DNA from: Pseudomonadota bacterium
GTDB lineage: Bacteria; Pseudomonadota; Gammaproteobacteria; Burkholderiales; Rhodocyclaceae
Length of the DNA: 64,000 nt
Assembly (NCBI GenBank): GCA_018262195.1
Contig: JAGTRS010000013.1
Location: 1 to 64,000 of the forward strand
Reading direction: 5' to 3'
The position numbers and the translations under genes are program-made. This document shows, one piece after another, positions 34,046-62,342 of the stretch. How positions within the stretch are numbered: the stretch's first letter is position 1; each line of letters begins with the position of its first letter. The notes beneath the pieces are model-generated. The model saw only the letters and a list, made by a program, of their open reading frames with translations, searched no databases and was not told where the DNA came from.

Positions 34046-34422
34046 GATCGACAACGTGAAAAATTGATCTTAAAAACAAAGTCAGTAACAAGCGCACCGC
34101 TAGCTGAGAGCCTTCGTAATCCATAAAAAATTGAATGAGTCTGTAACAAGATTGGTTCACCGTGCAGTCCCGTATGTATCGAAAAATATAGTCCGTAACA
34201 CGAGGGCCTCTGCAAGAAAATTAGGCCGCCAGCCCCTTCATCAGCGTGGTTGTACTACCGTTTCTCGGAATCAGTTTGCTGCTAAGGATTAGCCACGCTT
34301 TGTCCGATTAAAGGAGAAACGCTGCTATTTTTCGACTCGTTTCAAGTGGATAGGAGTATTGGCAAAAGTTTTTCGATCGCCATTAATTGAGCACATTCCT
34401 TCTTTATCCTATCCGATGCACG
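34046..34422. other. Probable left end of the Tn7-like transposon
   Basis: No gene is seen in this AT-rich gap. It holds three spaced 13-bp direct repeats (34080-34092, 34138-34150, 34190-34202), the arrangement expected for TnsB-binding sites at a transposon end. The exact terminus and target-site duplication could not be placed. Confidence 0.55.
34080..34202 (+). repeat. Three direct repeats AGTCNGTAACAMG
   Basis: The copies are AGTCAGTAACAAG (34080), AGTCTGTAACAAG (34138) and AGTCCGTAACACG (34190). Their starts are 58 and 52 bp apart. They occur at the junction between core genes and the tns gene cluster, so transposase binding is the most likely role. Confidence 0.7.
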
Positions 34423-35862: not shown

Positions 35863-36153
35863 ATTTTTACAACAAAAAGACTATGGCATTCGCCCCGAAA
35901 AACTAGCAGTGGTTAAACGTAGAATTTTCTCCGCAGCAGTAAAAACGGTAGGCAAGCAGCGCCATCTCCTATTGCAATAAAAATATCGTGTGTAACACGC
36001 AGACTTGTGCCACATGCCGCCGTCACAAGATGTACCAAGTGACATCGCCAATATGGATTGGCGTGAGAAATTTCTGGCGGGGCAGAATGCATGGAGAAGA
36101 TTTCAAATCGACCGCACACATTTTATGCCATCGGAAATTATGTATCGCACTGA
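35863..36153. other. AT-rich gap with a small palindrome
   Basis: No gene is seen. The palindrome CGTGTGTAACACG (35987-35999) could be an operator for the DUF2235 gene. It resembles, but does not match, the 13-bp repeats near 34100. Confidence 0.4.
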
Positions 36154-44669: not shown

Positions 44670-44992
44670 GCCAGCCTCCAAGCACGAAGGCCCGCCACGA
44701 TCTGCCTGAGTGCAGCATCTTCTTCGACGCTTTTACCCGTTAGTTCGAGAAGCGCGTCCATGGAGTTCCCAATTGAGGACTCCTCACTCTCTCCCTGCGT
44801 CCCCAGAGAATCTGCATATTTGCATAGCTTCAGGACATTTTGTGACGCTCGGCGAACATGGCCAGAAATGATTCTACTAATCTGCGACTGATGAACCCCA
44901 GTCGCATCGGCAAGATCTGTCTGGCGAATTTTCCTAGATTTCAGAAGCTTAGATAGCTTAGCAAGGAGTTCAATTTGGTGAGCAGTAAGCAT
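44651..44992 (-). CDS. XRE-family regulator upstream of second tniQ
   Basis: The 113-residue helix-turn-helix protein has an RQTDLADATGVHQSQISRIISG motif (shown in part as QTDLADATGVHQSQ). It is co-translated with the second tniQ. Palindromes 27-51 bp before its start are a likely autoregulatory operator. Confidence 0.83.
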   Translation of the reverse strand: MLTAHQIELLAKLSKLLKSRKIRQTDLADATGVHQSQISRIISGHVRRASQNVLKLCKYADSLGTQGESEESSIGNSMDALLELTGKSVEEDAALRQIVAGLRAWRLACTNRR

Positions 44993-45286
44993 TGGTAGGC
45001 ATTATCAATCCCAATCCCTGCATATTATGCAAATTTATATGCAAAACCAAGCCCAATAATCACCCCTGCTCCACCGTCTTCATCTTTTTCAGCAAGCAGT
45101 TCCGTATCTTCACCAAGACCTATCACCGCGAGAGCCCCTACCAGCTACGGATGCCATGACCGGCATTGTTATAGTTTGGTCGAAAGCACTGCACATTTTT
45201 GTGTGCTCGCGATGAAGAAAAGCTTTTAAATCGACGGTCAATAAAAAAGATAAAAATCTTTACCTGGCAGCCGTTATCATTTCGGC
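44993..45286. other. Gap between the Tn7-like core and the defence island
   Basis: No complete gene is seen. It holds the operator-like palindromes at 45019-45043 and a more GC-rich stretch (45080-45160). That stretch translates to a SKQFRIFTKTYHRESPYQL-like tail ending at a TGA, possibly a gene remnant. The promoter of the CARF activator must lie in the last 100 bp. Confidence 0.45.
45019..45043 (-). promoter_or_regulatory. Palindromic operator candidate for the XRE regulator
   Basis: TGCATATTATGCA (45019-45031) is a perfect palindrome with a one-base centre. The sequence then continues to a further ATATGCA arm at 45037-45043. The position just upstream of the XRE start fits autorepression. 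Confidence 0.6.
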
Positions 45287-46810
45287 ATGAACCCTAAACG
45301 ATGGCTTGTCTCTTGGATCGGAAAAACAGACCATGACTGCGCAGAGGGGCGGAATGGTGGTGATTTAGGGCCAATTGCGTCAGCGATTAAGGCTCTCCCT
45401 TCCTTTGACCGCATTTATCTCCTTACGAACTACGAGTATGAGCGCAGTAAGAAATACTGCGATTGGCTGGAGTCGACTACTAACTGCGTCGAGGCAGACC
45501 TCTATAGCATTGATCTAAGTAGTCCAATCGATTACGCAGACATCTACGAAAAAGTCTGCGCTGAGCTTAAGCAGGCTCGACTTCCAAGTGACGATGTTGA
45601 ATTGACGTTCCACTTGAGTCCTGGAACGCCGGCAATGGCAGCGATCTGGATCATTTTGGCAAAGACGCGTTTCCCCGCAAAACTGATTCAGACATCCAAA
45701 GAGCAGGGATGCCAGCAGGTAGATTTCTTCTTCGACTTGGCAAATGAGTTTCTGCCAGAGTTTCTCCAGCGCTCAAGTGATCGAATCAAGCGCTTGAGTG
45801 ACTCACATTCTGAGACCGCACCTGAGTTCAACAAGATAATTTTTCGTTGCGCTGAAATGGCCGAGCAGGTCTCGTTGGCACGAAAAATTGCTGCCCATGA
45901 TGTGCCCGTATTGATCCTTGGCGAGACTGGGACGGGCAAAGAGCTCTTTGCCGAAGCAATTCACGCTGCGAGCGATAGAAAAGACAAGCCGTTTATTGCA
46001 GTCAATTGCGGAGCGATTCCGAGAGAGTTGGCCAATTCAGAACTATTCGGCCATAAGAAGGGGGCTTTTACCGGGGCTGACTCAAATCGCCTGGGGCACT
46101 TTCGAGAGGCCGAAGGGGGAACGCTATTCCTTGACGAAATTGGCGACCTTCCTCTCGAATCACAGGTTCGGCTGTTACGCGCATTACAACAGCAAGAAAT
46201 TACCCCCGTTGGTGAATCGAAATCGATTAAAACGAATGTGCGCATTCTCGCTGCGACCCATCGCAGTCTTGGACAGGATGTCGCTGCTGGCCGTTTTCGT
46301 GAAGACCTTTTCCATCGTATCGCTGTCGGCATCATCAACCTACCAGCGTTACGGCATAGAGGAGATGATATCGATCTCCTCATTGGGCGTTTCCTATCCA
46401 AAGTAAATGCCGATGCCGCAGGCAAGCCAGAGGCGCAATATAAAGAATTTTCTGAAGAAGCTAAAAATCTTCTTCTCGCTTATCCTTGGCCAGGTAATGT
46501 GCGGGAGCTTTACCACACGATCCTGCGTGCTGCGATCTGGTCATCTGGCTCTGTGATTGAGGCCAATGATGTTGAGCGATCGCTTCTCACAATTAGACAA
46601 AGTGGTGATGGACTTCTGGATAGACCCCTTGGCAATGGCTTTGATTTGCAAGACGTTCTGGATGATGTCTCTCGCAGATACATAACAAAAGCGTATGCGG
46701 CGAGCGGCGGGAAGAAGAAGCGTGCCGCGGAGTTGTTGGGGTTCTCCAACTATCAAACGCTGGGAAATTGGGCCGAAAGACTCGGTGTCGGAATCGACGA
46801 AAACGACTAA
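45287..46810 (+). CDS. Sigma-54-dependent activator with CARF-like sensor domain (RtcR-like)
   Basis: The 507-residue protein has three parts. The N-terminal domain (1-165) has a Rossmann-like pattern and an HLSPGTPAM motif (109-117) that resembles the ligand-binding loop of CARF domains, which sense cyclic oligonucleotides. An AAA+ domain follows with Walker A GETGTGKE (212-219), the sigma-54 contact loop GAFTGAD (259-265) and Walker B FLDE (281-284). A Fis-type helix-turn-helix ends the protein (about 465-507). RtcR has the same layout but controls RNA repair; here the neighbours are defence genes. It likely activates the sigma-54 promoters before hsdR and thsB. Confidence 0.87.
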   Translation: MNPKRWLVSWIGKTDHDCAEGRNGGDLGPIASAIKALPSFDRIYLLTNYEYERSKKYCDWLESTTNCVEADLYSIDLSSPIDYADIYEKVCAELKQARLPSDDVELTFHLSPGTPAMAAIWIILAKTRFPAKLIQTSKEQGCQQVDFFFDLANEFLPEFLQRSSDRIKRLSDSHSETAPEFNKIIFRCAEMAEQVSLARKIAAHDVPVLILGETGTGKELFAEAIHAASDRKDKPFIAVNCGAIPRELANSELFGHKKGAFTGADSNRLGHFREAEGGTLFLDEIGDLPLESQVRLLRALQQQEITPVGESKSIKTNVRILAATHRSLGQDVAAGRFREDLFHRIAVGIINLPALRHRGDDIDLLIGRFLSKVNADAAGKPEAQYKEFSEEAKNLLLAYPWPGNVRELYHTILRAAIWSSGSVIEANDVERSLLTIRQSGDGLLDRPLGNGFDLQDVLDDVSRRYITKAYAASGGKKKRAAELLGFSNYQTLGNWAERLGVGIDEND

Positions 46811-46819
46811 TAAGGGAGC

Positions 46820-46834
46820 TGGCATGGTTATCGC
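46820..46834 (+). promoter_or_regulatory. Sigma-54-type promoter candidate before hsdR
   Basis: TGGCATG-N4-TCGC has GG at 46821-46822 and GC at 46833-46834, exactly the -24/-12 spacing. It ends 41 bp before the hsdR start and lies directly after the sigma-54 activator gene. The -12 box differs from TTGC at one base. Confidence 0.6.
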
Positions 46835-46875
46835 GGATAGGTGAGCCAACATATCCGCTGCAAAGACCACCAGAA

Positions 46876-49800
46876 ATGCTGATGCAAGACATCAAATCGC
46901 TGAATTTTGAGCCGCTCAGAGCCGCTTATCCCGAGCTCGCCAACATGGGCGGCTATGCGGAGAATTACGTGTACTCCGACCCGGAGAGCGCACTGGTCAA
47001 GCTTCGCAACTTTGCCGAGCGGATGGTGGACGTTCTCTATACGCGCCTTCGTCTGCCCCAAGCTCCATTGTCAAACTTTGTCGATCTGCTCAAGAACGAG
47101 AGTTTTCGAATGGTGGCCGACCCATTGGTGCAAGATAAGCTGCATCTGATTCGGCGCCTTGGTAATCGTGCTGCACATGGAGAGGATGTCGCCGCGAGTG
47201 ATGCACTGCGTAGTGTGCATGAGGCTTGGCAGTTGGCGCGCTGGCTTCATGTCTCTCAGCTCCAAGGAAAACTCAGCGATTTTTCAGACTACCGTGAGCC
47301 GCCTCGCGATGGCATTGACGGCAAGGCGGAGATTCGCCGAGAGCACAAAAAACTCGCGGAAGAAAACGAGATCAAGGAAGCTCGTATCAAGCAAATGCTT
47401 GATGAGTTACAAGCGCTTCGTGAGGCTGAAAAGGCGCTGCGAGATCAGATTAATGCCAATGCTCAACCGCTTTCTGCCGCTGAAATTGGGGCGCTGAGTG
47501 CAGCAAGTAATGTCGCCACACAGCAACTAAATTTCTCTGAAGACAATACTCGCAAATGGCTTATTGACCGTGACTTGCGTATGGCTGGCTGGGTGGTAGG
47601 ACACAACGGATCCAGTACAGCTCAAGTCGGTCAAGAGATTGAAGTTCTGCATCAGGGTACGCAAACTGGCCTAGGCTACGCCGACTATGTACTTTGGGAC
47701 GACAACGGCAAACCGCTGGCTGTCGTTGAAGCAAAGAAGACCTGCAAGGATGCTCGACTGGGTCAGCAGCAGGCCAAAGACTACGCCGATGGGCTTGAGA
47801 AGATGCATGGCCAGCGGCCGATGATCTTCTATACCAATGGTCACGATATCTGGGTTTGGGACGACGCTGCCGGTTATCCTCCTCGCAAGCTCTACGGTTT
47901 CTGCTCGAAAGATACTCTCCAATACCGCGTCAGTTTTCAGCGTCATGAACGCCGGGATCTTCTTGCCCTGACTCCTGATCCGGTCATTGCCGGGCGTCTT
48001 TATCAGATTGAGACACTACGTCGCGTGCAGGAGCGTTTTGCATCAAAGCATCGCAGAGCACTGGTCGTTCAAGCGACCGGAACTGGCAAGACTCGTGTGG
48101 CCATCGCCCTTGCCAAGCTCCTAATCGAAGCTCGTTGGGCTAAACGCGTTCTTTTTCTGTGTGATCGTCGTGAGTTGCGCAAACAAGCAAAGAACGCCTT
48201 CAACGAATTCCTGAAAGAGCCAATTTACGTCATCGGGCAAAAGAATGATGTAAGCAAGCAGGATGCTCGTATCTACATTGGGATCTACCAGGGACTCATC
48301 AACGACTACGAGAATTTCGATGTCGGCTTCTTCGATTTGGTTATTGCCGACGAATCGCATCGCTCCATCTACAACCTGTATGGCGACCTCTTCCGTTATT
48401 TCGACGCCCTTCAGGTTGGCCTAACCGCTACGCCGGTCGAAATGGTGAGTCGCAGCACATGTCAGCTCTTCGGTTGCGACTACAAGACTCCCACCGCAAA
48501 TTACACCCTGGAACAAGCGGTCGCCCAGAAAAACCTGGTGCCATACCGCATCGTTGCGCACACCACAAAGTTCCTACGGGATGGCATCAAGGCCGCCCAT
48601 CTAACAGATGAGCAAATCGCCCAGTTGGAGGATCAGGGCATTGATCCGAACGAACTCGATTTCGATGGCAAAGACATTGATGACGCCATTTACAACAAGG
48701 ACACCAATCGAATCATCCTGCGGAATCTGATGGAAAACGGCATTCGGGATTCAGATGGCCAGTTGCCAGGTAAGTCGATCATATTCGCTCGCAACATCGA
48801 CCATGCACGCTTACTTCATGGGCTGTTCGATGAAATGTATCCCCAGTTTGCCGGCAAATTCTGTGCAGTGATCCACTCCAAAGAGCCTCGCGCTGAACAA
48901 TTGATTGACGACTTCAAGGGCGGAGCGAACAGCAAAAATGAGCAGCTGCGTATCGCCATCTCGGTAGATATGCTGGATACCGGAATCGACGTGCCGGAAG
49001 TGGTCAACCTCGTCTTTGCCAAGCCCGTCAAATCACGGGTCAAATTCTGGCAAATGATTGGGCGTGGCACGCGTCTGTGCAGCAACCTGTTCGGCCCTGG
49101 ACTGGATAAGACCGAGTTTCTTATCTTCGACCACTGGGGAAACTTCGATTATCACGAGATGAACCCAGAAGAGGTCGAGCCACAACCGCCCAAATCGCTT
49201 ACCCAGAGGCGTTACGAGCTTAGGCTCGAGCTGGCTAAACTTGCCTTGAAGCGTTCAGAGCTCGAGGCATTCTCCGCACTCACCGCCTTAATCAAAGCCG
49301 ATGCAGATGGGCTGGAGGACGACAGCATTTCCGTTCGAGATAATTGGCAGGCCGTTCAACTTGCCCGTGACCCGGTGTTGCTTGACCAGTTTGCGCCAGC
49401 GACTGTGCAGGTGCTCATCGACACGGTTGCACCGCTACTAATTGGGCTTGATGTGCGTGGTCAGGGCGATGCACTGCGTTGGGATATCTTGCTTGGCAAT
49501 GCCCAAGAAGCTTCGCTGTCAAAGCCTGGTCAGGAAAATCCGCTCAAGGGGACTATCCTCGAATGGTTAGATCGCTTGCCTGCCAACCTTAGTCAGGTAC
49601 GGGCCAAAGCTTCGGCGCTCAAGGAAATCCGCAGCGATGCCTTCTGGTCTGAGGCCGACTTTGCAAAACTTGAAGCGCAACGGATTGCTTTGCGTAGCAT
49701 TGTCCATCTAGCCGAGGCTCCGGTGCTTCCACCTCCGTTGCCCGTCACTATCCTTGATATCAAGGAAGATCCGGCCGAATACCGTATTGAAGATCGACAG

Positions 49801-50319
49801 TCCAACGTCAAGAGCATCGACGCCCGCATCTACCAGCAGTCAGTCGAGGCTGCGCTAAAACCGCTATTTGACTCAGATCCGGTGCTCGCCAAAATCCGTC
49901 GTGGGGAGCCCGTTAGCGAAACCGAATTGGAACAACTCAATAGCCTTGTCCACACTCGCAATCCAAGTGTCGACCTGCATGTTCTCGCTGAGTTTTATGC
50001 AGATACAGCCGTGCCGCTGGCTCAAATCCTGCGCGGATTGGTCGGCATGGAAAGTAAGGCAGTTGAGGCACGTTTCACTACCTTTGCACAAAAACACCCG
50101 CTCACAGCAACTCAGTTGCGATTTCTGGACATGCTCAAAGAGCATATAGCCCAGTTCGGAGCGATACGCCTGGAGCAGCTCTTTGCTGCCCCCTTTACCC
50201 GCTTGCACGACGAAGGCATTACCGGCGTTTTTGCGCTTGACGGCCAGCTTGATGAACTCATTGGCATCGTCCGCAGCTTCGGCGAACCGCTGCCAAGCGC
50301 ACAAGCACCCACACAATAA
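46876..50319 (+). CDS. hsdR: HsdR, type I restriction endonuclease subunit
   Basis: The 1147-residue subunit cuts unmethylated DNA after translocation. It starts with a DUF4145-like N-domain. A PD-(D/E)xK nuclease core follows with Asp270 (GLGYADYVLW) and Glu285-Ala-Lys287 (AVVEAKKT). The SF2 helicase then shows ATGTGKT (400-406), DESHRSIYN and the QMIGRGTRL motif VI. The C-terminal part binds HsdM. ATG 46876 is chosen; the frame is open further upstream across the promoter. Confidence 0.95.
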   Translation: MLMQDIKSLNFEPLRAAYPELANMGGYAENYVYSDPESALVKLRNFAERMVDVLYTRLRLPQAPLSNFVDLLKNESFRMVADPLVQDKLHLIRRLGNRAAHGEDVAASDALRSVHEAWQLARWLHVSQLQGKLSDFSDYREPPRDGIDGKAEIRREHKKLAEENEIKEARIKQMLDELQALREAEKALRDQINANAQPLSAAEIGALSAASNVATQQLNFSEDNTRKWLIDRDLRMAGWVVGHNGSSTAQVGQEIEVLHQGTQTGLGYADYVLWDDNGKPLAVVEAKKTCKDARLGQQQAKDYADGLEKMHGQRPMIFYTNGHDIWVWDDAAGYPPRKLYGFCSKDTLQYRVSFQRHERRDLLALTPDPVIAGRLYQIETLRRVQERFASKHRRALVVQATGTGKTRVAIALAKLLIEARWAKRVLFLCDRRELRKQAKNAFNEFLKEPIYVIGQKNDVSKQDARIYIGIYQGLINDYENFDVGFFDLVIADESHRSIYNLYGDLFRYFDALQVGLTATPVEMVSRSTCQLFGCDYKTPTANYTLEQAVAQKNLVPYRIVAHTTKFLRDGIKAAHLTDEQIAQLEDQGIDPNELDFDGKDIDDAIYNKDTNRIILRNLMENGIRDSDGQLPGKSIIFARNIDHARLLHGLFDEMYPQFAGKFCAVIHSKEPRAEQLIDDFKGGANSKNEQLRIAISVDMLDTGIDVPEVVNLVFAKPVKSRVKFWQMIGRGTRLCSNLFGPGLDKTEFLIFDHWGNFDYHEMNPEEVEPQPPKSLTQRRYELRLELAKLALKRSELEAFSALTALIKADADGLEDDSISVRDNWQAVQLARDPVLLDQFAPATVQVLIDTVAPLLIGLDVRGQGDALRWDILLGNAQEASLSKPGQENPLKGTILEWLDRLPANLSQVRAKASALKEIRSDAFWSEADFAKLEAQRIALRSIVHLAEAPVLPPPLPVTILDIKEDPAEYRIEDRQSNVKSIDARIYQQSVEAALKPLFDSDPVLAKIRRGEPVSETELEQLNSLVHTRNPSVDLHVLAEFYADTAVPLAQILRGLVGMESKAVEARFTTFAQKHPLTATQLRFLDMLKEHIAQFGAIRLEQLFAAPFTRLHDEGITGVFALDGQLDELIGIVRSFGEPLPSAQAPTQ

Positions 50320-50330
50320 CGAGATAAAAC

Positions 50331-51860
50331 ATGATTACTGGCGAACTCAAGAACCGCATCGACAGCCTCTGGACCGAATTTTGGGTCGGGGGCATTACCA
50401 ATCCGCTCACCGTGATCGAGCAGATTACTTTCCTCATGTACGCCCGCATGCTGGACATGATGGAGCGTCGAGACGAGCGGAAATCGCAGCTTGCAGGCGG
50501 CACGTTCAAGCGCCGCTTCAACACCGACGAGCAGGTTTGCCGATGGGAAACATGGCGCCACTATGGCGCAGAGGAAATGCTCCCGCATGTGCGCGACAAA
50601 GTTTTTGCGCACTTTCGCCGCCTCGCCTCAGAGGCGGGCGACAATCCCTTTGCCGAATTCATGAAAGACGCCCAGCTCATGATCCAGAAGCCTTCGCTAC
50701 TGGTCAAAGCCGTCGCCATGATTGGCGAATTGCCGCTCGAAAAAGGCGATACAAAGGGCGATCTCTATGAATACCTGCTCGGCAAGCTGACCACCGCAGG
50801 TATCAATGGCCAGTTCCGCACCCCGCGCCACATCATCCGCATGATGGTCGAACTCATGGCCCCGCAGCCGACCGACCGCATCTGCGACCCTGCCTGCGGC
50901 ACTGCCGGCTTTCTCATCGAGAGCTACGACTACCTGCTGCGTAAATATTCAAGCCCCGCTGGCACCCATACCGAAATCGTCGATGGCGAAATGGTCACCC
51001 TCTACAGCGGGGATTTGCTTCAGGAACATCGCCAGCACGTGGACACCGACATGTTCCACGCATTCGATTTCGATGCCACCATGCTGCGCATCGCCACCAT
51101 GAACCTCGTCATGCACGGCGTCGCCGAGCCGGACGTGCACTACCAGGACACCCTCAGCCAGAAATTCGAAGAACGTTATCCGCGCGCTGCCAAGAGCGGC
51201 TTCGACCTCATCCTTGCCAACCCTCCCTTCAAGGGCAGCCTGGACGAGCAGGACGTCGCCCCTGACATCCTCCGCACCGTAAAGACCAAGAAGACCGAGC
51301 TTCTCTTCGTCGCCCTCATCCTGCGCATGCTCAAGGTGGGTGGGCGCAGCGCCACCATCGTGCCCGATGGCGTGCTCTTCGGTTCCAGCAAGGCTCACGT
51401 GCAGCTGCGCAAACACCTGGTGGAAGACAACCAGCTCGAAGCCGTAATCTCGCTGCCCTCTGGCGTCTTCAAACCCTATGCCGGCGTCTCTACGGCCATC
51501 ATCGTTTTCAGTAAGGGTGGTAAAACCGACGAAGTCTTCTTCTACGACGTCGAGAGCGACGGCTTCTCACTGGACGACAAGCGCCAGCCGCTCAAAGACA
51601 ACGACCTCCCCGACGTCCTTGACCAATGGCAGCAGTGGTGTGATCGCAAGGCCGACATCACCGATCGCACGCAGAAAGCCTTCAGCGTGCCGCTCGCCGA
51701 CATCGCCGCGCAGAACTACGACCTCTCCATCAATCGCTACAAGCAGCAGGTGCATGTGGCCGAGCAGCATGAAGACCCGCGCGAGATCCTCCAGCGCCTG
51801 AAGGCGCTGGAGAGCGAGATCCAGAAGGAGTTGGCTGAGCTGGAGGGGATGTTGGAATGA
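50331..51860 (+). CDS. hsdM: HsdM, type I DNA adenine methyltransferase
   Basis: The 509-residue N6-adenine methylase has a SAM motif DPACGTAGF (186-194) and the catalytic NPPF (297-300). The N-terminal helical HsdM_N domain is present. This gene is more GC-rich than hsdR and hsdS, a sign of mosaic origin. It overlaps hsdS by 4 bp. Confidence 0.96.
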
Positions 51861-52990
51861 TTGGCCGACGTAATGTTTTGCTTGGAAAGGTTGCCAAGGC
51901 GGTCAGTGTTCGTGCAAGTACCGACTGCACAGACCCGGTTTACTCCGTAACTAAGCATGCTGGCATGGTGCCAAGCAGTGAGTATTTCAAGAAGCAGGTA
52001 TTCAGCCGAGATATCGAAGGATACAAGGTTGTTCGCCGCGGACAGTTTGCATACGCAACGATCCATTTGGACGAAGGTTCCATTGGGCTACTTGATACGG
52101 TAGATAGAGCCGTCGTAAGCCCAATGTACACAGTATTCGAGACGGACTCCGCGCAGGTTTATGGGCCGTATCTACTTCGCCTACTCAAGTCAGAAAGGGC
52201 TCTTTCTCGTTACCAAACTATGGGAAATGGCTCGGTTCATCGGCGAAGGGCCATTCCGTTCGAGACGCTAGAGAAACTTGAAATAGCGTTACCAGATGTC
52301 GAAGAACAAAAACGCATCGCTGCCATTCTCGATAAGGCCGACAGCCTGCGCCGCAAGCGCCGGCAAGCTATCCGCCTCGCCGACGATTTCCTCCGGGCTG
52401 TCTTCCTCGACATGTTCGGCGATCCACTCACCAATCCGAAGGGGTGGCCGGTAAGCGAATTAAAAGCTTTGGGCCAAGTCAGCACAGGCAGAACACCTCC
52501 TGGAGACAAGCCCGGTATGTTCGGCGGCGAAACCCCATTCGTCACGCCAGGAGACCTTGAAAGCGAAGCCCCTGCAAAGCGAAGTCTGACGGAGGCAGGG
52601 GTCGCCGAAGTCAATACCGTCAGATCTGGTGCCGCGTTGGTGTGCTGTATTGGCGCGACGATTGGCAAAATGGGGAAAGCAACGAAGCGCAGCGCATTCA
52701 ATCAACAGATCAACGCTGTGGAATGGAATGGCTTGATTGATGACGATTACGGACTTGCCGCTTTGAGGTTCTTCAAGGCGGAAATTGCACGGCAAGGAGC
52801 ATCCACCACGCTGCCGATTCTAAAGAAATCCTCTTTTGAAAAACTCCGGATCACTGTTCCGCCAATTAAATTGCAGCAAGCGTTCACGGCTCAGGTTGCG
52901 ACGGCCGAACGATTGAGATCTTCGTCGAACAGATCCTTGGCCGAGATTGAGTCGCTGCAAGCGGCACTTCAAAACGAGTCTTTTGCATAA
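51857..52990 (+). CDS. hsdS: HsdS, type I specificity subunit
   Basis: The 377-residue protein has two target-recognition domains (about 1-145 and 190-330). Each is followed by a coiled-coil conserved region: [21 protein letters not shown], and the final EIESLQAAL part. The target sequence cannot be read from the protein. It lies 5 bp before the ATPase gene, so the next two genes share the operon. Confidence 0.93.
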
Positions 52991-52995
52991 CACCT

Positions 52996-54636
52996 ATGCC
53001 ATCCCTGATTAAATCAATATCCCTTAAGAACTTCAAAGGTTTCTCCGAAGAAGTTCGCATCGACCTGTGCCCAATCACGCTGCTCTTCGGGGCCAACAGC
53101 GCCGGCAAGAGCACGATCCTGCAGTCACTTCAACTTATTCGCGAAGTTCTGGAACGCGGATCACCGGATGTTGACTCAACCCTACAGGGAGGCAAAGCAG
53201 TTGATTTGGGCGGATTCCGAAACTTCATTCATAGGCATGAGACCGACCGCGTAATTGAAATCGGATTTGGCATCGAACTCGGTGACGAATCCCTACCAGA
53301 ACTCTCCGGTGATGCCATCGAAGACCTTTCACTGGCTGATGCCGAGGTGTGGCATTTTCATGAAACGCTAAATTCCATTCGGGCCTGTGTTTTAACCCTG
53401 GAAGTCAAGCTGAGCATGTCGTGGAGCGATCTGCGTAACGAAGCTGTCGTCAGCGCCTACAAGTTAAGCTTCAACAACATCTGGTGTGCCGATATTTCGA
53501 CCGGGGCCGATGGTAGGCAACCACGTTTGCGGATTAACGCAAACCATCCCATTTTTCTGGCAAATGACATTGAAGGGGAGACCTTGTTCCTCGAGCTGGC
53601 GGACTGGGTTCTGCCGGGCCAGGGCGCCGAGGGATTCCGCACCGAGTTGGGCCTCACCGCTGATGATAACGGTGGCGACAAGGCTCCAGAGATCCCCCCC
53701 TCAGTTCTTCTTGCTGTTCTGGAAGTTGTTCGTGCCGCTTCTGCGGATAGCCCAAACCCTGGATTCGCAGCATGGCTGCATAGATTCAAGGGCGCCATAC
53801 CTGAGCTCGACCGGCAGATCCTGATTCCAGCGAACAGCCCTGAATCAGCCAAGGACATATTCGTCCTGCAGGCGTTCTCGGGCTTCATGTCCTGGATGCT
53901 GGTTGGCCCCTTGCGGCTGCTACGCGAGCAGTTGGAAAAATCCCGTTACCTGGGCCCGCTGCGTTGCATCCCACCCCGTGGTTTTGAAGCCTCGCTCTCC
54001 AGAAACGACGCTGCTTGGTCGGACGGCATGGCCGCCTGGGAGACCTTGCTTTCCTCGCCGCAGGAAATGCTCGAACGCTGCAGCCACTGGATGCAGCGTG
54101 CCGATCGCCTGAATTCAGGCTACGGCCTAGTGCGCACCGAAGTGCAGGAAATCGACTACAACACTCGAACCCCGCTTGGTCGGGCCAAACCCCGCATTGC
54201 TCTGGTCGATCAGGCAGGCCTGACGCATCAGGCGCTAGATGTTGGTGTCGGCATCTCGCAGGTGCTGCCCGTAGTAGTCGCCGCGCAAGACGACCGCGCC
54301 AGCATTGTCTCCATCGAGCAACCCGAACTCCACGTCCACCCGGCAGTGCAAGTGGGCCTCGGTGACCTCTTCATCGACGGCGCCATCGAGCGCGGCCTCA
54401 GCTTCCTGCTCGAAACACACAGCGAGCATTTGATCTTGCGTCTGCTGCGCCGCATCCGCGAGGCGGCCGAAGAAGGTGACACCGAGCACATCAACCCGGA
54501 CCTGCTCGGCGTGTATTACCTCGCCAACGAAGACGGCCGCATCACCGCCACACGCCTGCCAGTGAACGCCGAGGGCGATTTCGACACTCCCTGGCCGAAA
54601 GGTTTCTTCGAAGAGCGTGGCCCGGAGCTCTTCTGA
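52996..54636 (+). CDS. AAA ATPase of the DUF3696 type
   Basis: The 546-residue ABC-class ATPase has Walker A FGANSAGKST (31-40), a long insert, a Walker B-like SIEQPELHVHP and an LETHSEHLILRLL block. The C-terminus WPKGFFEERG is typical of DUF3696. Its architecture resembles OLD-family ATPases without the TOPRIM nuclease. Such ATPases sense infection in several two-gene defence systems. The one-base overlap with the PLD-like gene implies the two act together. Confidence 0.87.
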   Translation: MPSLIKSISLKNFKGFSEEVRIDLCPITLLFGANSAGKSTILQSLQLIREVLERGSPDVDSTLQGGKAVDLGGFRNFIHRHETDRVIEIGFGIELGDESLPELSGDAIEDLSLADAEVWHFHETLNSIRACVLTLEVKLSMSWSDLRNEAVVSAYKLSFNNIWCADISTGADGRQPRLRINANHPIFLANDIEGETLFLELADWVLPGQGAEGFRTELGLTADDNGGDKAPEIPPSVLLAVLEVVRAASADSPNPGFAAWLHRFKGAIPELDRQILIPANSPESAKDIFVLQAFSGFMSWMLVGPLRLLREQLEKSRYLGPLRCIPPRGFEASLSRNDAAWSDGMAAWETLLSSPQEMLERCSHWMQRADRLNSGYGLVRTEVQEIDYNTRTPLGRAKPRIALVDQAGLTHQALDVGVGISQVLPVVVAAQDDRASIVSIEQPELHVHPAVQVGLGDLFIDGAIERGLSFLLETHSEHLILRLLRRIREAAEEGDTEHINPDLLGVYYLANEDGRITATRLPVNAEGDFDTPWPKGFFEERGPELF

Positions 54637-55517
54637 TGATCAAGGAATTTGCCGTCGAACCAGAGGCTATCGTCAGCAGCTACCGGGATTTCAGCTACGT
54701 TGTCGAGAAATTCGGCGTTTGCGAAGGGAGGGTTATCTCCCGATTCCCTAAGACCTGGAAACGGCTTGTGTATGAAGCCGCACAGGAACGGCATCAGGGG
54801 AAGGTTGAGGGCAAAAGAATCGAGGAACGCTTGCGGCGGTTGCCGGACGAAGTCCTGGTTGCCATGTCCAGGCCAGCAGGTGACGGCGAATGGATAGAAG
54901 TCGCCATCGCAGAACACCAACGTCAGCCTTTCGATTACCTACTTATCAATGACCCGCAAGGCATCGCAGAAGCAGTTCCGGTTGAAAACCTGGACGGGGA
55001 GCATCCTTGCCTGCAAATCACACGCGAGATATCGATTCCTCGCGAGCCCGAAGCAATGGCCGGCGCCTGCTCATTCCTGCTCAAGACTGCGAAAGTGATC
55101 AAGCTGATTGACCCTCATCTGGATTTCTCTGTCCGCCGCTTCCGCGAGCCCTTCAAGGCATTCATGAAGCACGTTCGTGCCGGCACACAGATCGAGATCT
55201 ACCGCGGCATTCGGGATGATGGCATAACGCGGGTTTTTCTGCGGCAGAACGCAGAGCAGTTCTTGCTGGCATCTCTTCCCGCCGGGGTTCGAGCACGCAT
55301 TGTTTTGCTGCCCGCAGACACCATGCACAACCGTTTTCTGCTGACAGACTTGGGGGGCATTAAATTCGGCGTTGGTCTGGACGCCGCAGGCGACAACGCC
55401 GCACCCGATGATGAACTCTCGCTGATGGTGCCCGATGTGTGGCAGGCGCGCTGGGGCCAGTATTCGGGGGGCGAACTGCTGGGAGAGTGGCAGGGTCAAG
55501 TTGTGGACGCTAATTGA
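54636..55517 (+). CDS. PLD-like protein paired with the DUF3696 ATPase
   Basis: The 293-residue protein has a VIKLIDPHLDF strand-turn (155-164) and MHNRFLLTD with His231, Arg233 and Asp238. This matches the spacing of the HxK(x)4D motif of phospholipase D-like nucleases, with Arg in place of Lys. It would be the effector, a nuclease or lipase, regulated by the ATPase. Only one HxK-like motif is present, so a dimer would form the active site, as in Nuc-type enzymes. The function is an inference from motif and gene pairing. Confidence 0.65.
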   Translation: MIKEFAVEPEAIVSSYRDFSYVVEKFGVCEGRVISRFPKTWKRLVYEAAQERHQGKVEGKRIEERLRRLPDEVLVAMSRPAGDGEWIEVAIAEHQRQPFDYLLINDPQGIAEAVPVENLDGEHPCLQITREISIPREPEAMAGACSFLLKTAKVIKLIDPHLDFSVRRFREPFKAFMKHVRAGTQIEIYRGIRDDGITRVFLRQNAEQFLLASLPAGVRARIVLLPADTMHNRFLLTDLGGIKFGVGLDAAGDNAAPDDELSLMVPDVWQARWGQYSGGELLGEWQGQVVDAN

Positions 55518-55636
55518 CTTTTCAAGAAGCGGATTTGCATAAGAAATATTACCAAAGGTAAAAATAATTACTCAATTGTCTCTGATGGCAGGTGTTTTAT
55601 GTCTTTAACTTATTGATTTTTATAGAACATAGCGTA

Positions 55637-55651
55637 TGGCATGGATCTGGC
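55637..55651 (+). promoter_or_regulatory. Sigma-54-type promoter candidate before thsB
   Basis: TGGCATG-N4-TGGC has GG at 55638-55639 and GC at 55650-55651, again at exact -24/-12 spacing. It shares TGGCATGG and T-N-GC with the hsdR site. It ends 56 bp before the thsB start. Confidence 0.55.
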
Positions 55652-55707
55652 CTTAATGGATTTACCCCGCCGGGGAAATTTAAAGCCAATATGAAAGGAT
55701 CCAAGCC

Positions 55708-56205
55708 ATGGCGCGTCGCATCTTCTACAGTTTCCACTACCTTCCCGATAACTGGCGTGTTTCGCAAGTACGAAATATCGGTGCCATTGAAGGCAACAAG
55801 CCTGCCTCTGATAACGACTGGGAAACGATCACCAAGGGTGGCGACAAGGCCATCGAAAAATGGATCGACGAGCAGATGAGTGGACGCAGCTGCGTCGTAG
55901 TGCTCATCGGTTCCGCTACTGCCAATCGCAAGTGGATTAACCACGAGATCGTGAAAGCCTGGAACGCAGGCAAAGGCGTGCTCGGAATCCATATCCAGAA
56001 CCTGAAGGATCGCGAAGGCAAGACCTGCAAGAAGGGCAACAATCCTTTCGACCACATCGAACTCAAAGCGTCAGGCAAAAAGCTCTCTTCCATCGCCAAA
56101 GTGTACGATCCGCCGGGCGCGGAAAGCACTGATGTCTACAACCACATCAAGAACAACCTCGAAAAGTGGATCGAAGTTGCCATCGACATCAGGAGCAAAA
56201 ATTGA
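55708..56205 (+). CDS. thsB: ThsB, Thoeris TIR-like sensor
   Basis: The 165-residue protein matches the ThsB (MTH538 TIR-like) family. It starts MARRIFYSFHYLPDNWRVSQ and has GRSCVVVLIGSATANRKWINHEI, the TIR core with the conserved Trp and Glu (quoted in parts). In known Thoeris systems ThsB detects phage and makes an NAD-derived cyclic ADP-ribose signal. A GGATCC-rich leader and a weak ribosome-binding site precede it. It is coupled to thsA. Confidence 0.88.
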   Translation: MARRIFYSFHYLPDNWRVSQVRNIGAIEGNKPASDNDWETITKGGDKAIEKWIDEQMSGRSCVVVLIGSATANRKWINHEIVKAWNAGKGVLGIHIQNLKDREGKTCKKGNNPFDHIELKASGKKLSSIAKVYDPPGAESTDVYNHIKNNLEKWIEVAIDIRSKN

Positions 56206-57704
56206 GTTCGGCAAAGCCGGTCTGGGTGGCTTCCCGAGAGCAGCGCCGCTTCATCTGCAATTTCGGCGACAAGGTACTGAATGGGGAAGCCTCGCTGTTC
56301 GTCGGCGCCGGAGCATCCAGGAGCGCAGGGTTCGTGGACTGGAAGGCGCTCCTAACCGATGTTGCGGATGAACTTGACTTGGACATCGGTAAGGAACATG
56401 ACCTCTTGGCATTGGCCCAGTATCACGTCAATGGACATGGTGGCCGAGGGGAACTCAATCAGCAGCTCATTGACGCATTTACGCGTGATGCAGAACGAAC
56501 CGAGGTGCACGACGTCGTGGCGCGCCTACCAATCGATTCTGTCTGGACGACGAACTATGACCAACTGCTTGAAAAAGCCTATGAGGCAGTCGGTCGATGC
56601 GTCGAGGTCAAGCTGTCGATCCAAAACCTTGCGCAGGCAAAAAAAGGGCGGGATGTAACGCTCTACAAGATGCATGGATGCGTCACGCAGCCCCATGAAG
56701 CCGTGCTGACCAAGCAAGATTATGAAATCTACGACGTATCCAGACGGCTGTTCACCGACAGTCTGAAAGGCGATTTCATCGAGAAAACGCTGCTCTTCTT
56801 GGGGTTTAGTTTTGCCGACCCCAACGTTGAGCGAATTCTGGCGAAGGTCCGCGAGCAACTTGGACAGAACCAGCGGACGCATTACTGGATTACCAAACGC
56901 CCACCACAAACCTGCCCGATGGGTGTGCGCTCAAGGGATGAGATGGAATACGACCGCCGCAAAGCTGAACTGCAAAGTGCTGATCTGAAGCGGTATGGAA
57001 TCCAGACAATTTGGGTTGATGACTATGCCGATGTTCCGCAATTGCTAAGGGCTCTGGAGTCATACGTAACCCGAAAAGGTGTGTTCGTGTCGGGGGCTGC
57101 GCACGAGCCGGGGTTGCTTGGATGGGATCAACTGAACGAATTGAGCCGTGCGCTTGGTGCAGAGATTATCAAGCGTGGTTTTAATCTGGTCTCTGGCTTT
57201 GGTATCGGCATCGCGGAGCAAACCATAATCGGGGCGTTCAGAGCGGTCTATGAAAGCTCCAAACCCCAGCCAGCTGAGCGCGTCCTTATTCGTCCCTTCC
57301 CTGGCAGCGCCCCTCCGGAGCGACGTGCCGAGATTTTCCGTCGTCACCGCGAGGATCTAATTTCCCAAGTGGGAGCACTTGTGGTGATTGCGGGCAACAA
57401 AGTGGGCAGTGACGGCTCGGTGGTTCTGTCCAGTGGTGTTGAAGAAGAGGTGCAGATTGCGCTACGTCTTGGCAAGCCGGTAATCCCTGTGGGAATGACA
57501 GGATATGTGGCGCAGGCCGTGTGGGAGGAGGCGCATGAAGCGCCTGGCCGCTATCTGCCAGGAATTGATTGCAAGGCTGAACTCGAGATCCTGGGCAATT
57601 CGACTGCAACGGTTCAGGAGATTGTTCAGGCTGTTTCCAGCCTCTTGATCAAGGCTGAGCAAATTGCTTCTGCGAGATGCCGGGATAACCCGAAATCATC
57701 GTAG
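56202..57704 (+). CDS. thsA: ThsA, Thoeris SIR2-SLOG NADase effector
   Basis: The 500-residue protein has an N-terminal SIR2 domain (SLFVGAGASRSAG, catalytic Asn118 in TTNYDQLLE and His158 in KMHGC) and a C-terminal SLOG domain (about 293-480, with SGFGIGIAEQ and GVEEEVQIALRLGKPVIPVG). The spacing between Asn and His is 40 residues, as in the studied Bacillus cereus ThsA. It destroys NAD when the SLOG domain binds the ThsB signal. The start is a TTG overlapping the thsB stop as TTGA, with AGGAG 6 bp upstream. Confidence 0.88.
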   Translation: MSSAKPVWVASREQRRFICNFGDKVLNGEASLFVGAGASRSAGFVDWKALLTDVADELDLDIGKEHDLLALAQYHVNGHGGRGELNQQLIDAFTRDAERTEVHDVVARLPIDSVWTTNYDQLLEKAYEAVGRCVEVKLSIQNLAQAKKGRDVTLYKMHGCVTQPHEAVLTKQDYEIYDVSRRLFTDSLKGDFIEKTLLFLGFSFADPNVERILAKVREQLGQNQRTHYWITKRPPQTCPMGVRSRDEMEYDRRKAELQSADLKRYGIQTIWVDDYADVPQLLRALESYVTRKGVFVSGAAHEPGLLGWDQLNELSRALGAEIIKRGFNLVSGFGIGIAEQTIIGAFRAVYESSKPQPAERVLIRPFPGSAPPERRAEIFRRHREDLISQVGALVVIAGNKVGSDGSVVLSSGVEEEVQIALRLGKPVIPVGMTGYVAQAVWEEAHEAPGRYLPGIDCKAELEILGNSTATVQEIVQAVSSLLIKAEQIASARCRDNPKSS

Positions 57705-58757: not shown

Positions 58758-61700
58758 ATGCTGATGCAGAGCTGGTTGCATGAAATGCTGCAACAACGAA
58801 ACTGTCCTCAACCGGATCGCCGATGGTTATATGCCTATCGACTTGATCTTGATGAGTATCGTTCCTTGAAAGCTGTGTTGTGCGATGCCTTACAGGGCGC
58901 CCAAGTGGCGGTGCTTGTAAAGCGGAATCGTATGTTTTCAGCTCTCTTTGTGCTCTATGCTGCTGAGTGGTGGCGCCGTGAATATTCGGGTGGTGCTTGG
59001 AGATGGAGTCCGATCCTTGAGTCTCTAGGCATCAAATCAGAACAGCTAGCACCAAATGAGCGTACTGCTGCTGTGCTAACGGGGTTTGCCTATTGGGGAC
59101 TTCGGCCAACGGGCGAGGGGAAAAAATATTTCGGGGCGATTGTTGCTCACGGTGGCCTGCCGTTAAAAATGATTGGTCATGGTGATGGCAAGCTTGCCGC
59201 GATTATGGCGACGGTTTTAAGGCAGGCTGCGCGTTATCGGTGGAACGAAGGACAGGTCGCCGACGCAGTTGCTGATCATGCGCACGGCTTGCCAGAGAGC
59301 TTGTGTCAGCGCGAGATCTATGAACTTGTTGCTCAAATGGTAATGACTGCGCTGCGTCTCAAGCAGGAATACCGGATTGAGGGAACGGCGGATCCGATTT
59401 CCGCTCTCGACCAAGCCTATCCTGATTGGCGTGGCGAATTTCCACTTGCGTTGGACGACGATGCTGCGCAGCGATTACTAGCTGGCCTGGTTAGAGAGGC
59501 AAACCAAACCTCACTCGCAAACGAACTCGCAGCTTTTTCTGTAATAAGAGTGCTGGTGCCAATTGCGGACGGGATGTATGCCCTGCAGTCTTCAATTGCC
59601 CATCCGTCGGTATTGTCTGCTGAGTCGTTGGTCGCACAGTTCGAACTCGCTTCTGCGGAGGACTTGCCTAGGTATTTCAATATTGATGTTGCCGTTAATG
59701 AGCGGGTTCCGCTAACGGTTGGTCGCCAAATATTGGGGACACAGAACGCTTCTGTTTCTCTTGCCGCGCAACGTTCTAAGTGGGTGGCAAGCGATGCACT
59801 TAACGAGCATCTCCTGTACCTGAGAGATACGACAGGCGACCTTCACGATGGCCCCGTTGCAATCCCTGGTGGGGAATCAATTTGCCTTGACGAGCCATTG
59901 GTCTTTGCAGATCGCGATCACATGCTTCGGTTTGTCGGCTCAGGAAATCTTCGTCTCCCAGAGGCAGAGGTCTTTTTGGCAATATCTGATGACGCACTGA
60001 TTCAGAATACGGATCAAGGAAACTCCCCCCAGCTGATTGGCAGGGTAGATTTCAGTTCGTGCTCGTTAAGGGTGTTCAGGATCACGGCAGGAGCAGTGGT
60101 TAGCCAAAATGGCGAAGAGTGGCATGTAAAACTTAACCAGACTTCAAAGCTTGCCTCAAATTACGTCCTCGAAGGTCAGCGCCTTCCGTTTCACAGCCGG
60201 CCATGGCCCGTGTTCAAAGGCATGCCGAAACTTGCTCGTTACAGCGAGTCTGGCGAGCGCGCCCTTATTTCGTCGGCGAGTCAGAAGCTGTATGTGGCGG
60301 GCACCGATCGAGCGGTTAAAGCCATCGACGCTCGTGGCCTACTAGATCTCATCGTGACAGATGGCGAGGAACAACTAGCCCGCCTTAGATTCGTTGTTAT
60401 TGATAAGCGAGCTGAAGAGAGCTTTGTCTCAGCAGCGGTCCCAACAGAAGGGGAAATCCGACTCTCGGGGTGGCATGTCAATGATATTGCTCTGGCCCGT
60501 GCTGATGACGTTAATGCTCAGCTGTCATTTGATGGTGATAGTGTTTCCATAAAGCTAAACGCTGCGGACGCTCCACCCGACCAGATCCGGTTGGCCATGA
60601 AGTGGCCAAATAGTCGCTACGACGTCCAAGTATCTTTGCCATTTCCTGCGACAGGTGGGCGAGTTTACGATGTCGATGGAAATTCCATTGAGTCTGGTCA
60701 AACCCTTGCGCTCAGAGGGCTGGCAGGGACACGTGTTCAAATTTTTGATCAAAACCCGAACACCCCGAAGCGCTATGAAATCGCCTTGTCTTTGTCGGGT
60801 ACAAGCTCAATTGGACACCGCTCGGGTCTAGATTTGAAGATTCCGATCGATCTCAAAAAGGGCGTGGCAGAAGTTAGGTTGCTAGACCTTTATCCTGAAA
60901 TCGAGTCGCTACTAGGCTTCTCTGAGGAACTGGACGCATCAGTCAAACTGACCTTGCTCATCAGTGACCGTCCGGGTCTGTGGCTAAAAGTCGTACGTTA
61001 TGACTCGCTTTTGGAACACCACGTGATGTCAGTTGCGCTACCCCAGACGTATCTGAAGAATCACGGGCCTGACGAGCTGTTCAATATTCAAGTCTTGGCA
61101 ACTCCTCTGACTATCGCCAGATCAGAACATGTGGCATTAACGCAAGTTTGTTCTGAAGGTGTACCGACGGGAATGTGGGGCATCGAAGAGCTGGATGCGG
61201 GGTTGTCTCCGTGGCTGATCTTTCCAGGACAGAATTCCCCCGTGCAATTTCGTCCATTGCTTTTTGACGGCGGAATTGGAACGGGGGGCAATAGTTCCGA
61301 TGCCGAAGTTGCCCGATGCGCCTTGGCTCTCGCAATGCTAATCCCTGATCAAACGTTGAGGTCAGAGGCTATTGCTGGGGCTATTGATGAAATGGTCTTG
61401 GACTTCATGCACCCCTCCTGGCTATTTCTGGATCAGCTATGGACTTCATTTGGCAAACTCCCTCTCTGCAGCATCGATCCCTTCAAAATTCTAGCTGCCA
61501 GGCCTGATTGGGTAGTTGCTGTGCTCATGCGTAGTCAATTGCCGCTGCCGGACCTATTCGATTTTGTCAGCAAATTGAAGCGTCAACTCGGATTGGTCCT
61601 GGAGCTTGCCTCGATATCTGCCTGGCGAGATGCAATCAACCACCTAAGAAAATATTGGGTTCAATTAGTTGGAGAAGAGGTCGCCAAACTTACCTTCAAC

Positions 61701-62342
61701 ATGGTTGTGAAAGAACGACTGGAGGGAATCGCTTTCGAGTTTCAGTCGCTTCAAGTAATCCTCGATCTGTTGTTGTTCGAAACCGTCGGGGATATTGGTC
61801 AAAGTTTGATTGAAATTCAGCGAAAGTCAGCCAGTGATCCTGCTGCATTTTCACGAGAGCTATGGTCTGGCGCCGACTCAACGTTGATGCGTTACCTTTT
61901 GCGGACACATGCAGATGACCGGCATTGGCCCGAGCAAAGGTTCTTCAAAGAGCAAGCTCTTCCAGCCCTGTTAGAGGGCCTAGGCAATGAGATCAAATTG
62001 AAACTCGAGCCGAGAATGAGGTCATTGTTTTGGGTCGCCACAAATGATTTCAAAATGTCAGTTGCCAATGCCCCCGTTATTTGTGCGATCTGGGTAGTAG
62101 CAAACGTCGATTTGGATTGGTGGCTTGACCCCGCCCGGAGAGCTGCACTGCGGCGACTCCGCGCATTCGATACTGCCTGGTTTGATGAGTGCTACAGGAA
62201 GACCCTAGCTTCCTGTATGGCGTTCGGATTGCTGCAGCCCCGAGCGGTTTCATCATCTTCGACTGATTCCATCTCATCTGCAAAGCCAACGATTCGCCGT
62301 ATTCCTGCTGGATCAAAAACCGTAATTAGAACGAGTCCTTAA
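58758..62342 (+). CDS. Druantia type III DruH-like (YjiT/STY4851-like) protein
   Basis: The 1194-residue protein has an N-terminus (SWLHEMLQQRNCPQPDRRWLYAY, in part) like the YjiT/STY4851 family. It is followed directly by a large DEAD/DEAH helicase gene, the arrangement of Druantia type III (druH-druE). No catalytic motif is seen; the middle part looks beta-rich. Its role in phage defence is inferred from family and neighbour. ATG 58758 is chosen; a GTG at 58731 is open. Confidence 0.65.
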   Translation: MLMQSWLHEMLQQRNCPQPDRRWLYAYRLDLDEYRSLKAVLCDALQGAQVAVLVKRNRMFSALFVLYAAEWWRREYSGGAWRWSPILESLGIKSEQLAPNERTAAVLTGFAYWGLRPTGEGKKYFGAIVAHGGLPLKMIGHGDGKLAAIMATVLRQAARYRWNEGQVADAVADHAHGLPESLCQREIYELVAQMVMTALRLKQEYRIEGTADPISALDQAYPDWRGEFPLALDDDAAQRLLAGLVREANQTSLANELAAFSVIRVLVPIADGMYALQSSIAHPSVLSAESLVAQFELASAEDLPRYFNIDVAVNERVPLTVGRQILGTQNASVSLAAQRSKWVASDALNEHLLYLRDTTGDLHDGPVAIPGGESICLDEPLVFADRDHMLRFVGSGNLRLPEAEVFLAISDDALIQNTDQGNSPQLIGRVDFSSCSLRVFRITAGAVVSQNGEEWHVKLNQTSKLASNYVLEGQRLPFHSRPWPVFKGMPKLARYSESGERALISSASQKLYVAGTDRAVKAIDARGLLDLIVTDGEEQLARLRFVVIDKRAEESFVSAAVPTEGEIRLSGWHVNDIALARADDVNAQLSFDGDSVSIKLNAADAPPDQIRLAMKWPNSRYDVQVSLPFPATGGRVYDVDGNSIESGQTLALRGLAGTRVQIFDQNPNTPKRYEIALSLSGTSSIGHRSGLDLKIPIDLKKGVAEVRLLDLYPEIESLLGFSEELDASVKLTLLISDRPGLWLKVVRYDSLLEHHVMSVALPQTYLKNHGPDELFNIQVLATPLTIARSEHVALTQVCSEGVPTGMWGIEELDAGLSPWLIFPGQNSPVQFRPLLFDGGIGTGGNSSDAEVARCALALAMLIPDQTLRSEAIAGAIDEMVLDFMHPSWLFLDQLWTSFGKLPLCSIDPFKILAARPDWVVAVLMRSQLPLPDLFDFVSKLKRQLGLVLELASISAWRDAINHLRKYWVQLVGEEVAKLTFNMVVKERLEGIAFEFQSLQVILDLLLFETVGDIGQSLIEIQRKSASDPAAFSRELWSGADSTLMRYLLRTHADDRHWPEQRFFKEQALPALLEGLGNEIKLKLEPRMRSLFWVATNDFKMSVANAPVICAIWVVANVDLDWWLDPARRAALRRLRAFDTAWFDECYRKTLASCMAFGLLQPRAVSSSSTDSISSAKPTIRRIPAGSKTVIRTSP

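Follow-up and report, generated by a model that had tools for sequence, protein, structure and literature searches.

Gene content of the cluster and its activator

The DNA under study, referred to here as the window, was the first 64,000 nucleotides of a 76.7-kb contig (JAGTRS010000013.1) from a Rhodocyclaceae bacterium (assembly GCA_018262195.1, 4.23 Mb). From position 45287 onward all the named genes were on the plus strand (Table 1), and amtB, identified by sequence reading, was next after druE on the opposite strand. The largest gap in this run of genes was located between the ATPase partner and thsB, and each of the two proposed promoters heads one of the two resulting gene blocks. The first block contained a complete type I restriction-modification set (hsdR, hsdM and hsdS), followed by an OLD-like ATPase and its partner. 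No match was obtained for the partner in the Pfam and PADLOC scans; relatives of it stand after the ATPase in many homologous loci. The second block starts with a ThsB TIR protein adjoining a ThsA SIR2-STALD protein, the arrangement by which Thoeris, a defence of the suicide type, is recognised, and thsA may in reality start further downstream than its ORF. The following ORF of about 270 amino acids, also without a match in the Pfam and PADLOC scans, has a 91% relative at the equivalent place in the genome of L040, a near twin of the window. The last two genes were tentatively assigned to Druantia III, with DruH identified by PADLOC DruH3 and DruE by Helicase_C and MZB alone. The gene set looks like the cargo of a Tn7-like element.

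Table 1. Coordinates of the genes and putative control sites, in positions of the window
Feature	Position	Strand	Basis or remark
Putative activator-binding palindrome ahead of the activator gene	45247..45266		Top match in contig
CARF - AAA+ (GAFTGA) - HTH sigma-54 activator, RtcR_PspF2	45287..46810	+	Pfam, PADLOC PDLC01995, CARF fold
Putative intragenic enhancer: strong palindrome at 46437, weak partner 20 bp further	46437..46476		15.8 and 4.9 bits
Promoter 1 (sigma-54-type), TGGCATG-N4-TCGC	46820..46834	+	9 bp past the activator stop
hsdR	46876..50319	+	Pfam, PADLOC; first ATG at 46876
hsdM	50331..51860	+	Pfam, PADLOC
hsdS	51857..52990	+	Pfam, PADLOC
AAA_15/AAA_21 (OLD-like) ATPase	52996..54636	+	Pfam, PADLOC
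ATPase partner (PLD in the first-pass annotation)	54636..55517	+	Position after the ATPase
Putative tandem activator-binding palindromes, 19 bp apart	55536..55574		15.5 and 13.4 bits
IHF-consensus-like site AATCAATAAGTTA	55606..55618	-	Between tandem palindromes and promoter 2
Promoter 2 (sigma-54-type), TGGCATG-N4-TGGC	55637..55651	+	Start 71 bp ahead of thsB
thsB (TIR)	55708..56205	+	Pfam ThsB_TIR, PADLOC ThsB1
thsA (SIR2-STALD)	56166..57704	+	Pfam, PADLOC
ORF, about 270 aa	57793..58605	+	In the thsB-thsA run of genes
druH (Druantia III)	58758..62342	+	PADLOC DruH3, E 4.3e-127
druE-like helicase	62345..64000, continuing to contig position 68659	+	ORFs; Helicase_C and MZB past the window end

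The activator, a protein of 507 amino acids, was matched over residues 4-501 by PADLOC PDLC01995 (RtcR_PspF2, CARF_AAA_HTH) with an E value of 7.5e-195. In the Pfam scan Sigma54_activat was matched, the RtcR family was matched on the N-domain slightly above its cut-off (24.9 and 23.1 bits, respectively), and the Fis-type HTH was found slightly under its cut-off (20.8 and 22 bits, respectively). The GAFTGA loop, a mark of sigma-54 activators, is intact in the translation. An alignment of the CARF domain from 50 sequences was used as the input for an AlphaFold model of the N-domain (mean pLDDT 83), and the best matches of this model in the PDB were CARF proteins, e.g. Csm6, Can2, Card1 and Cam1. 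All of the 30 matches at E ≤ 0.001 (chains of Csm6, Can2, Card1, Cam1, Cdn1, Cad1, a ring nuclease and SSO1393) are presumably CARF proteins, and a profile match of the N-domain to Csm6 (6tug) had an E value of 4.4e-4. The N-domain as modelled is a CARF fold, and the CARF-like domain and the intact GAFTGA loop claimed in the first-pass annotation agree with PADLOC, Pfam, the model and the translation. The activator was its own sole full-length match in the assembly, the 17 others starting at residue 106 or beyond, and RpoN is encoded in the same genome.

Putative promoter and enhancer sites compared across genomes

The two TGGCATG-N4 sites ahead of hsdR and thsB were found exactly as first annotated. 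Both have GG at -24 and GC at -12 with the fixed spacing of sigma-54 promoters; their -12 elements, TCGC and TGGC, are not the full TTGC, and those of the homologs are TCGC, TTGC, GTGC and others. The narrow TGGCATG pattern, derived post hoc from the two sites, is expected 0.21 times by chance, and the sigma-54 consensus with at most 2 mismatches gave 32 matches in the window, with 34 expected in shuffles, i.e., no excess. The two sites taken alone are no more than chance, and they become credible through the comparison of genomes because their place and context are conserved.

For this comparison, 413 relatives were collected by a CARF-only scan and the best 80 of the 413 were kept; 11 further genomes were added, and a twelfth, G471 (a 50-aa partial CARF match), was left out. 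Together with the window this gave 92 loci, five of which were unusable (3 with cut ORFs and 2 with too little sequence). A post-activator site, defined as TGGC[AC][CT][GA]-N4-NNGC in the interval from -40 to +250 relative to the activator stop, was present in 58 of the remaining 87 loci and, after removal of the duplicates L114 and L063, in 57/85 loci versus 7/541 other genes of the same loci (Fisher 2e-51, assuming independent loci, which these are not because they share descent). The strict site was missing in 28/85 loci, about 6-7 of which (L055, L068, L072, L085, L086, L098, G408) have short, broken activator ORFs, so that the stop used was not the true one. When 19 loci with a missing or atypical site were re-examined, a TGGCACG site was seen on the divergent side in three (L109, L111, L101) and a weaker TGGCGCG site in one (L099).

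A palindrome, RTAA-N6-TTAY, was first noticed by eye in the post-activator intergenic regions and ahead of thsB, and the first model was seeded from it. Because the seeded model risked circularity, de novo discovery of palindromic motifs was performed on 85 activator-upstream regions, with the window and its near twin L040 excluded, and the best motif of 250 random starts was ATAAaaatttTTAT. In the 76.7-kb contig this motif scored highest at 45247, 46437, 55536 and 55555, the same four places as with the seeded model. The highest score in the contig was that of the 45247 palindrome (16.7 bits seeded, 16.5 bits de novo), which by its place is likely to serve autoregulation. With the seeded model, the activator-upstream and thsB values were reached in 4/2000 and 18/2000 dinucleotide shuffles of the region, respectively, and a palindrome of at least 12 bits within 150 bp upstream was present at 45/87 activators (mostly training data) versus 20/520 other genes. 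The first-pass annotation called for a search for activator-binding repeats 80-200 bp upstream: the tandem palindromes lie in this range, 101 and 82 bp ahead of the -24 site of promoter 2, and the repeat of the hsdR unit is found instead 383 bp upstream of promoter 1, inside the activator gene.

The tandem pair pattern with a 5-bp gap and at most 2 mismatches occurred in one place of the 4.23-Mb genome, the thsB site itself, with 0 mismatches (3 places for the reversed control); with a 6-bp gap and at most 3 mismatches 17 places were found, all with 3 mismatches and fewer than in the control (45). Both patterns demand two half-pairs of good quality, so that weak pairs like that at 46437 would be missed and further targets are possible. 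Over all loci, most of which cover only about 9 kb downstream of the activator, three tandem pairs were located more than 300 bp past the activator, and only that of the window adjoins a promoter.

The intragenic position recurs among the relatives. In 80 activator genes, 65 of the 73 coding-sequence palindromes of at least 11 bits sit 331-390 bp before the stop, and in 44/80 loci no more than 3/300 shuffles of synonymous codons, in which the protein is kept, reached the observed score. For the activator gene of the window the single-site score was reached in 0/300 and the tandem score in 6/300 such shuffles. In 57/76 homologs the site had a fixed codon position, preceding the WPGN codons by 50, 30 or, in a single case, 27 nt; it was present in 0/7 other sigma-54 activators of the source genome (17 stretches fetched, 7 of them passing the motif filter). 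Its distance to the -24 site was 360-415 bp in 50/56 loci, the remaining six being without such a -24 site; helical phasing of these distances (24 distinct ones) was not significant. In the 13 'long' loci with a control region after the gene, a class defined after earlier results had been seen, the intragenic score was at most 4.2 bits, and 3/13 were reached in at most 15/300 shuffles. In the stretch separating the intragenic enhancer from promoter 1, an IHF-like site was found in 12/50 loci, the window not being one of them. Post-activator site and intragenic palindrome occur together in, among others, Betaproteobacteria, Geobacter-like bacteria, Latescibacterota and Binatota.

Ahead of thsB the order is tandem palindromes, IHF-like site and -24/-12 site. 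The same module stands directly after the activator in other loci, with a spacing of -101/-81 or shifted by about 10 bp, and most modules of either kind, post-activator or thsB, carry the palindrome 71-111 bp upstream of their -24 site; in L077 and G189 a post-activator promoter was seen and no palindrome. The IHF-like core also recurs in post-activator promoters. Genes for thsB were sought in 395 genomes of the family, 16 of which had one (the window's own included), and in 49 activator-locus genomes, 9 of which had one; L136 and L157 were left out of the promoter comparison. In the seven cases with thsB no more than 20 kb away from the activator (window, G723, L040, L079, L073, L050, L067), the -24/-12 site was present in 7/7, the palindrome in 6/7 and the IHF-like site, 30-31 bp ahead of the -24 site, in 6/7. 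Among the 17 copies elsewhere the -24/-12 site was found in one (L133) and the palindrome in none. Twelve of these 17 come from genomes in which the activator had no match, G578 has its activator on another contig, and the remaining four (L153-L156) are at different places of activator-holding genomes; L126 and L154, with identical coordinates, are probably one genome counted twice. L151, the thsB of the L050 genome, has the promoter and a palindrome of only 4.7 bits, and the L122 thsB promoter has no IHF consensus.

The proposed co-occurrence in other genomes was thus borne out, the activator and a sigma-54-type promoter before thsB being found together in six others (co-location by gene order). 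In four of these six (L040, L079, L067 and L050, the last with hsdR split into two ORFs) the interval from activator to thsB holds restriction and ATPase genes; an hsdR fragment alone remains in G723, and mostly reversed genes are found in L073. Because the thsB promoter and its palindrome track co-location with the activator, both units are probably driven by it.

Proposed regulon and alternative explanations

Judged from the DNA, the RtcR_PspF2-type activator probably acts as the local master switch of the defence cluster through two promoters. The conservation, spacing and co-location of the motifs across genomes support this regulon well; binding by the activator, use of IHF, transcription by sigma-54, induction by infection and the nature of the ligand are inferences. 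In the resting cell the CARF domain would hold the activator inactive, and the activator would probably keep down its own expression through the palindrome located 40 bp upstream of the start codon. The CARF ligand would most likely be a product of RNA damage, e.g. a cyclic-phosphate RNA end, by analogy with RtcR. Upon ligand binding, the AAA+ ring would assemble on the RTAA-N6-TTAY palindromes and remodel the sigma-54 RNA polymerase at both promoters. With the intragenic enhancer, promoter 1 would be read into hsdR-hsdM-hsdS-ATPase-partner; with the tandem enhancer and an IHF-like bend between, promoter 2 would be read into thsB-thsA-orf-druH-druE. The joint programme of type I restriction, the ATPase pair and Thoeris under one activator and two promoters, as first proposed, is supported by the comparison, and its second unit is larger than had been noted, Druantia III having been missed.

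That both -24/-12 sites are chance matches, with ordinary sigma-70 promoters serving the operons, would fit the lack of excess over shuffles and the imperfect -12 elements, and we consider it very improbable in view of the enrichment of the site after activators (57/85 versus 7/541) and at co-located thsB genes (7/7 versus 1/17), and of the fixed spacing of the -24/-12 site to the palindrome and the IHF-like core. A simple sigma-70 scan ahead of both units gave 0 sites, with 0.8 and 2.3 expected, respectively; this says little because few were expected and none was found at the activator's own gene either. The palindrome might also be the operator of another regulator, or serve only autorepression of the activator, with sigma-54 activation from unseen sites. 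In many loci it precedes the start of the activator by about 30-50 bp, as a repressor site would, and its binding by the activator itself is a prediction; the recurrence of the palindrome upstream of the -24 site in the majority of modules, both post-activator and thsB, its constant distance to promoter 1 in 50/56 loci with an intragenic site, and its occurrence at 0/17 thsB copies elsewhere nevertheless make this explanation improbable.

It is also possible, though on balance unlikely, that the regulon is real and its CARF domain is controlled by a protein partner and not by nucleotide sensing; RtcR is reported to require RtcAB. RtcAB is reported to bind the CARF domain of RtcR, and the basic residue that other CARF pockets have is described as mostly missing in the RtcR family (Makarova 2014, PMC4012209); none is visible in the SPGTPAM stretch of the activator. 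On the other hand, 19 columns were invariant over the 50 sequences of the CARF alignment, many of them within WIG.TD and HLSPGTPAM, which suggests a conserved pocket, and RtcR itself is reported to bind cyclic-phosphate tRNA halves.

Relation to known systems and significance

The activator family and the type of cluster are already known, and the statement of the first-pass annotation that no system with this layout had been described does not hold. RtcR-like CARF-NtrC-HTH proteins adjoining restriction-modification systems were described, with sigma-54 control predicted, by Makarova 2014 (PMC4012209), whose family is, as far as can be judged, that of PADLOC PDLC01995; a map of promoter, enhancer and target genes, as proposed here, is absent from its account of the RtcR-like proteins. 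In the CoCoNuT superoperons of Bell 2024 (PMC11090510) an RtcR homolog comes first, type I RM follows directly after the CARF gene, and PLD and, in some, Druantia III genes are in the same direction; a UAS was proposed for them, together with internal promoters that are likely independent of RtcR. The superoperons contain Cnu/McrB-like genes, whereas none was recognised here, where druE is the last gene of the cluster and amtB comes next, and no McrB-like family was matched among the cluster proteins scanned. The second promoter with the same enhancer is proposed here and not in the superoperon account, in the main text of which the word 'Thoeris' does not occur.

The nearest studied relative is RtcR, the reported ligand of which is tRNA 5' halves with cyclic phosphate ends; it shares with the present activator the CARF-AAA-HTH architecture, and the rtcBA promoter, like the modules described here, is reported to have a UAS, an IHF site and a -24/-12 site. 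RtcR lacking its CARF domain is reported to be constitutively active. In contrast to the rtcBA RNA-repair operon, the targets here are defence genes, no RtcA or RtcB was found among the cluster proteins scanned, and the putative enhancer of promoter 1 is inside the activator gene. PspF of the psp operon is likewise described as a sigma-54 activator tied to phage stress, but it consists of AAA and HTH only, without CARF, and has phage shock protein genes as targets. With known Thoeris the cluster shares ThsB TIR and ThsA SIR2-STALD, and differs in the conserved sigma-54-type promoter and putative enhancer that belong to thsB alone. Neither RtcR nor Thoeris occurs in a 2025 preprint on YprA helicases, and no published description of the promoter code was found among the best-ranked literature matches, judged by their titles and the beginnings of their abstracts. 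Within the reach of these literature searches, the new elements are the cis-code, the enhancer inside the activator gene and the conserved promoter of Thoeris.

Clustered defence genes are in most cases not known to be switched on jointly. A conserved cis-code would allow the defence genes and units under one sensor to be predicted from sequence. With it, the published proposal of restriction clusters being governed by RtcR-like CARF proteins becomes a model that can be tested directly at named sites. The keeping of an enhancer within the reading frame of the activator across distant bacteria is unusual in itself. There is about an even chance that the finding extends to an inducible immune regulon across many bacterial groups, in which an RNA-damage-sensing CARF activator, with its main enhancer within its own coding sequence, would drive restriction and then recruited systems, e.g. 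Thoeris, via portable enhancer-IHF-sigma-54 cassettes.

Variant layouts of the activator loci

In two of the compared loci (L109 and L111), the activator gene was convergent with a defence operon, a strong enhancer-like palindrome (RTAA-N6-TTAY) was located upstream of the activator, and the divergent TGGCACG site, a -24/-12-type promoter match, preceded a different gene. Only a short hsdR fragment was kept in the activator-to-thsB interval of L139 (genome G723), and thus Thoeris and Druantia III adjoin the activator there without restriction genes. In the activator-headed operon of locus L046, the gene directly 3' of hsdS encoded a product resembling ThsA (70% over 449 aa); no additional tandem palindrome was found at this locus by the tandem-palindrome search.

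Leader and promoter region of thsB

At least 18 bases, AACTTATTGATTTTTATA, including the IHF-like core, were identical between the region after the activator of L027 (genome G189) and that before thsB of the window, despite only 28% identity of the CARF domain of the L027 activator. A small G+C-rich hairpin, with a counterpart recognized by eye in locus L148, was present in the thsB leader (55660-55680) and was not flagged by the terminator scan.

A putative Tn7-like element around the cluster

The entire defence cluster was bracketed by inverted GTTACAGACTT-like repeats, between which two TnsD/TniQ genes (Table) and a gene for a 442-aa ATPase were located. The latter matched Pfam AAA families only weakly, and was read as TnsC-like. 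The defence genes look like the cargo of a Tn7-like element of about 35 kb, with its insertion adjoining amtB.

Features of the putative Tn7-like element
Feature	Coordinates	Location
Inverted GTTACAGACTT-like repeat	window 34081-34200	one flank of the cluster
TnsD/TniQ gene	42006-43520	between the repeats
TnsD/TniQ gene	43593-44681	between the repeats
Inverted GTTACAGACTT-like repeat	contig 68837-68867 (L008 4837-4867)	other flank of the cluster

Within the same element, an enhancer-like palindrome at window 35846-35865 (12.1 bits, ranking fifth in the contig) was located at the start of a minus-strand gene (34423-35862), which is a possible additional target.
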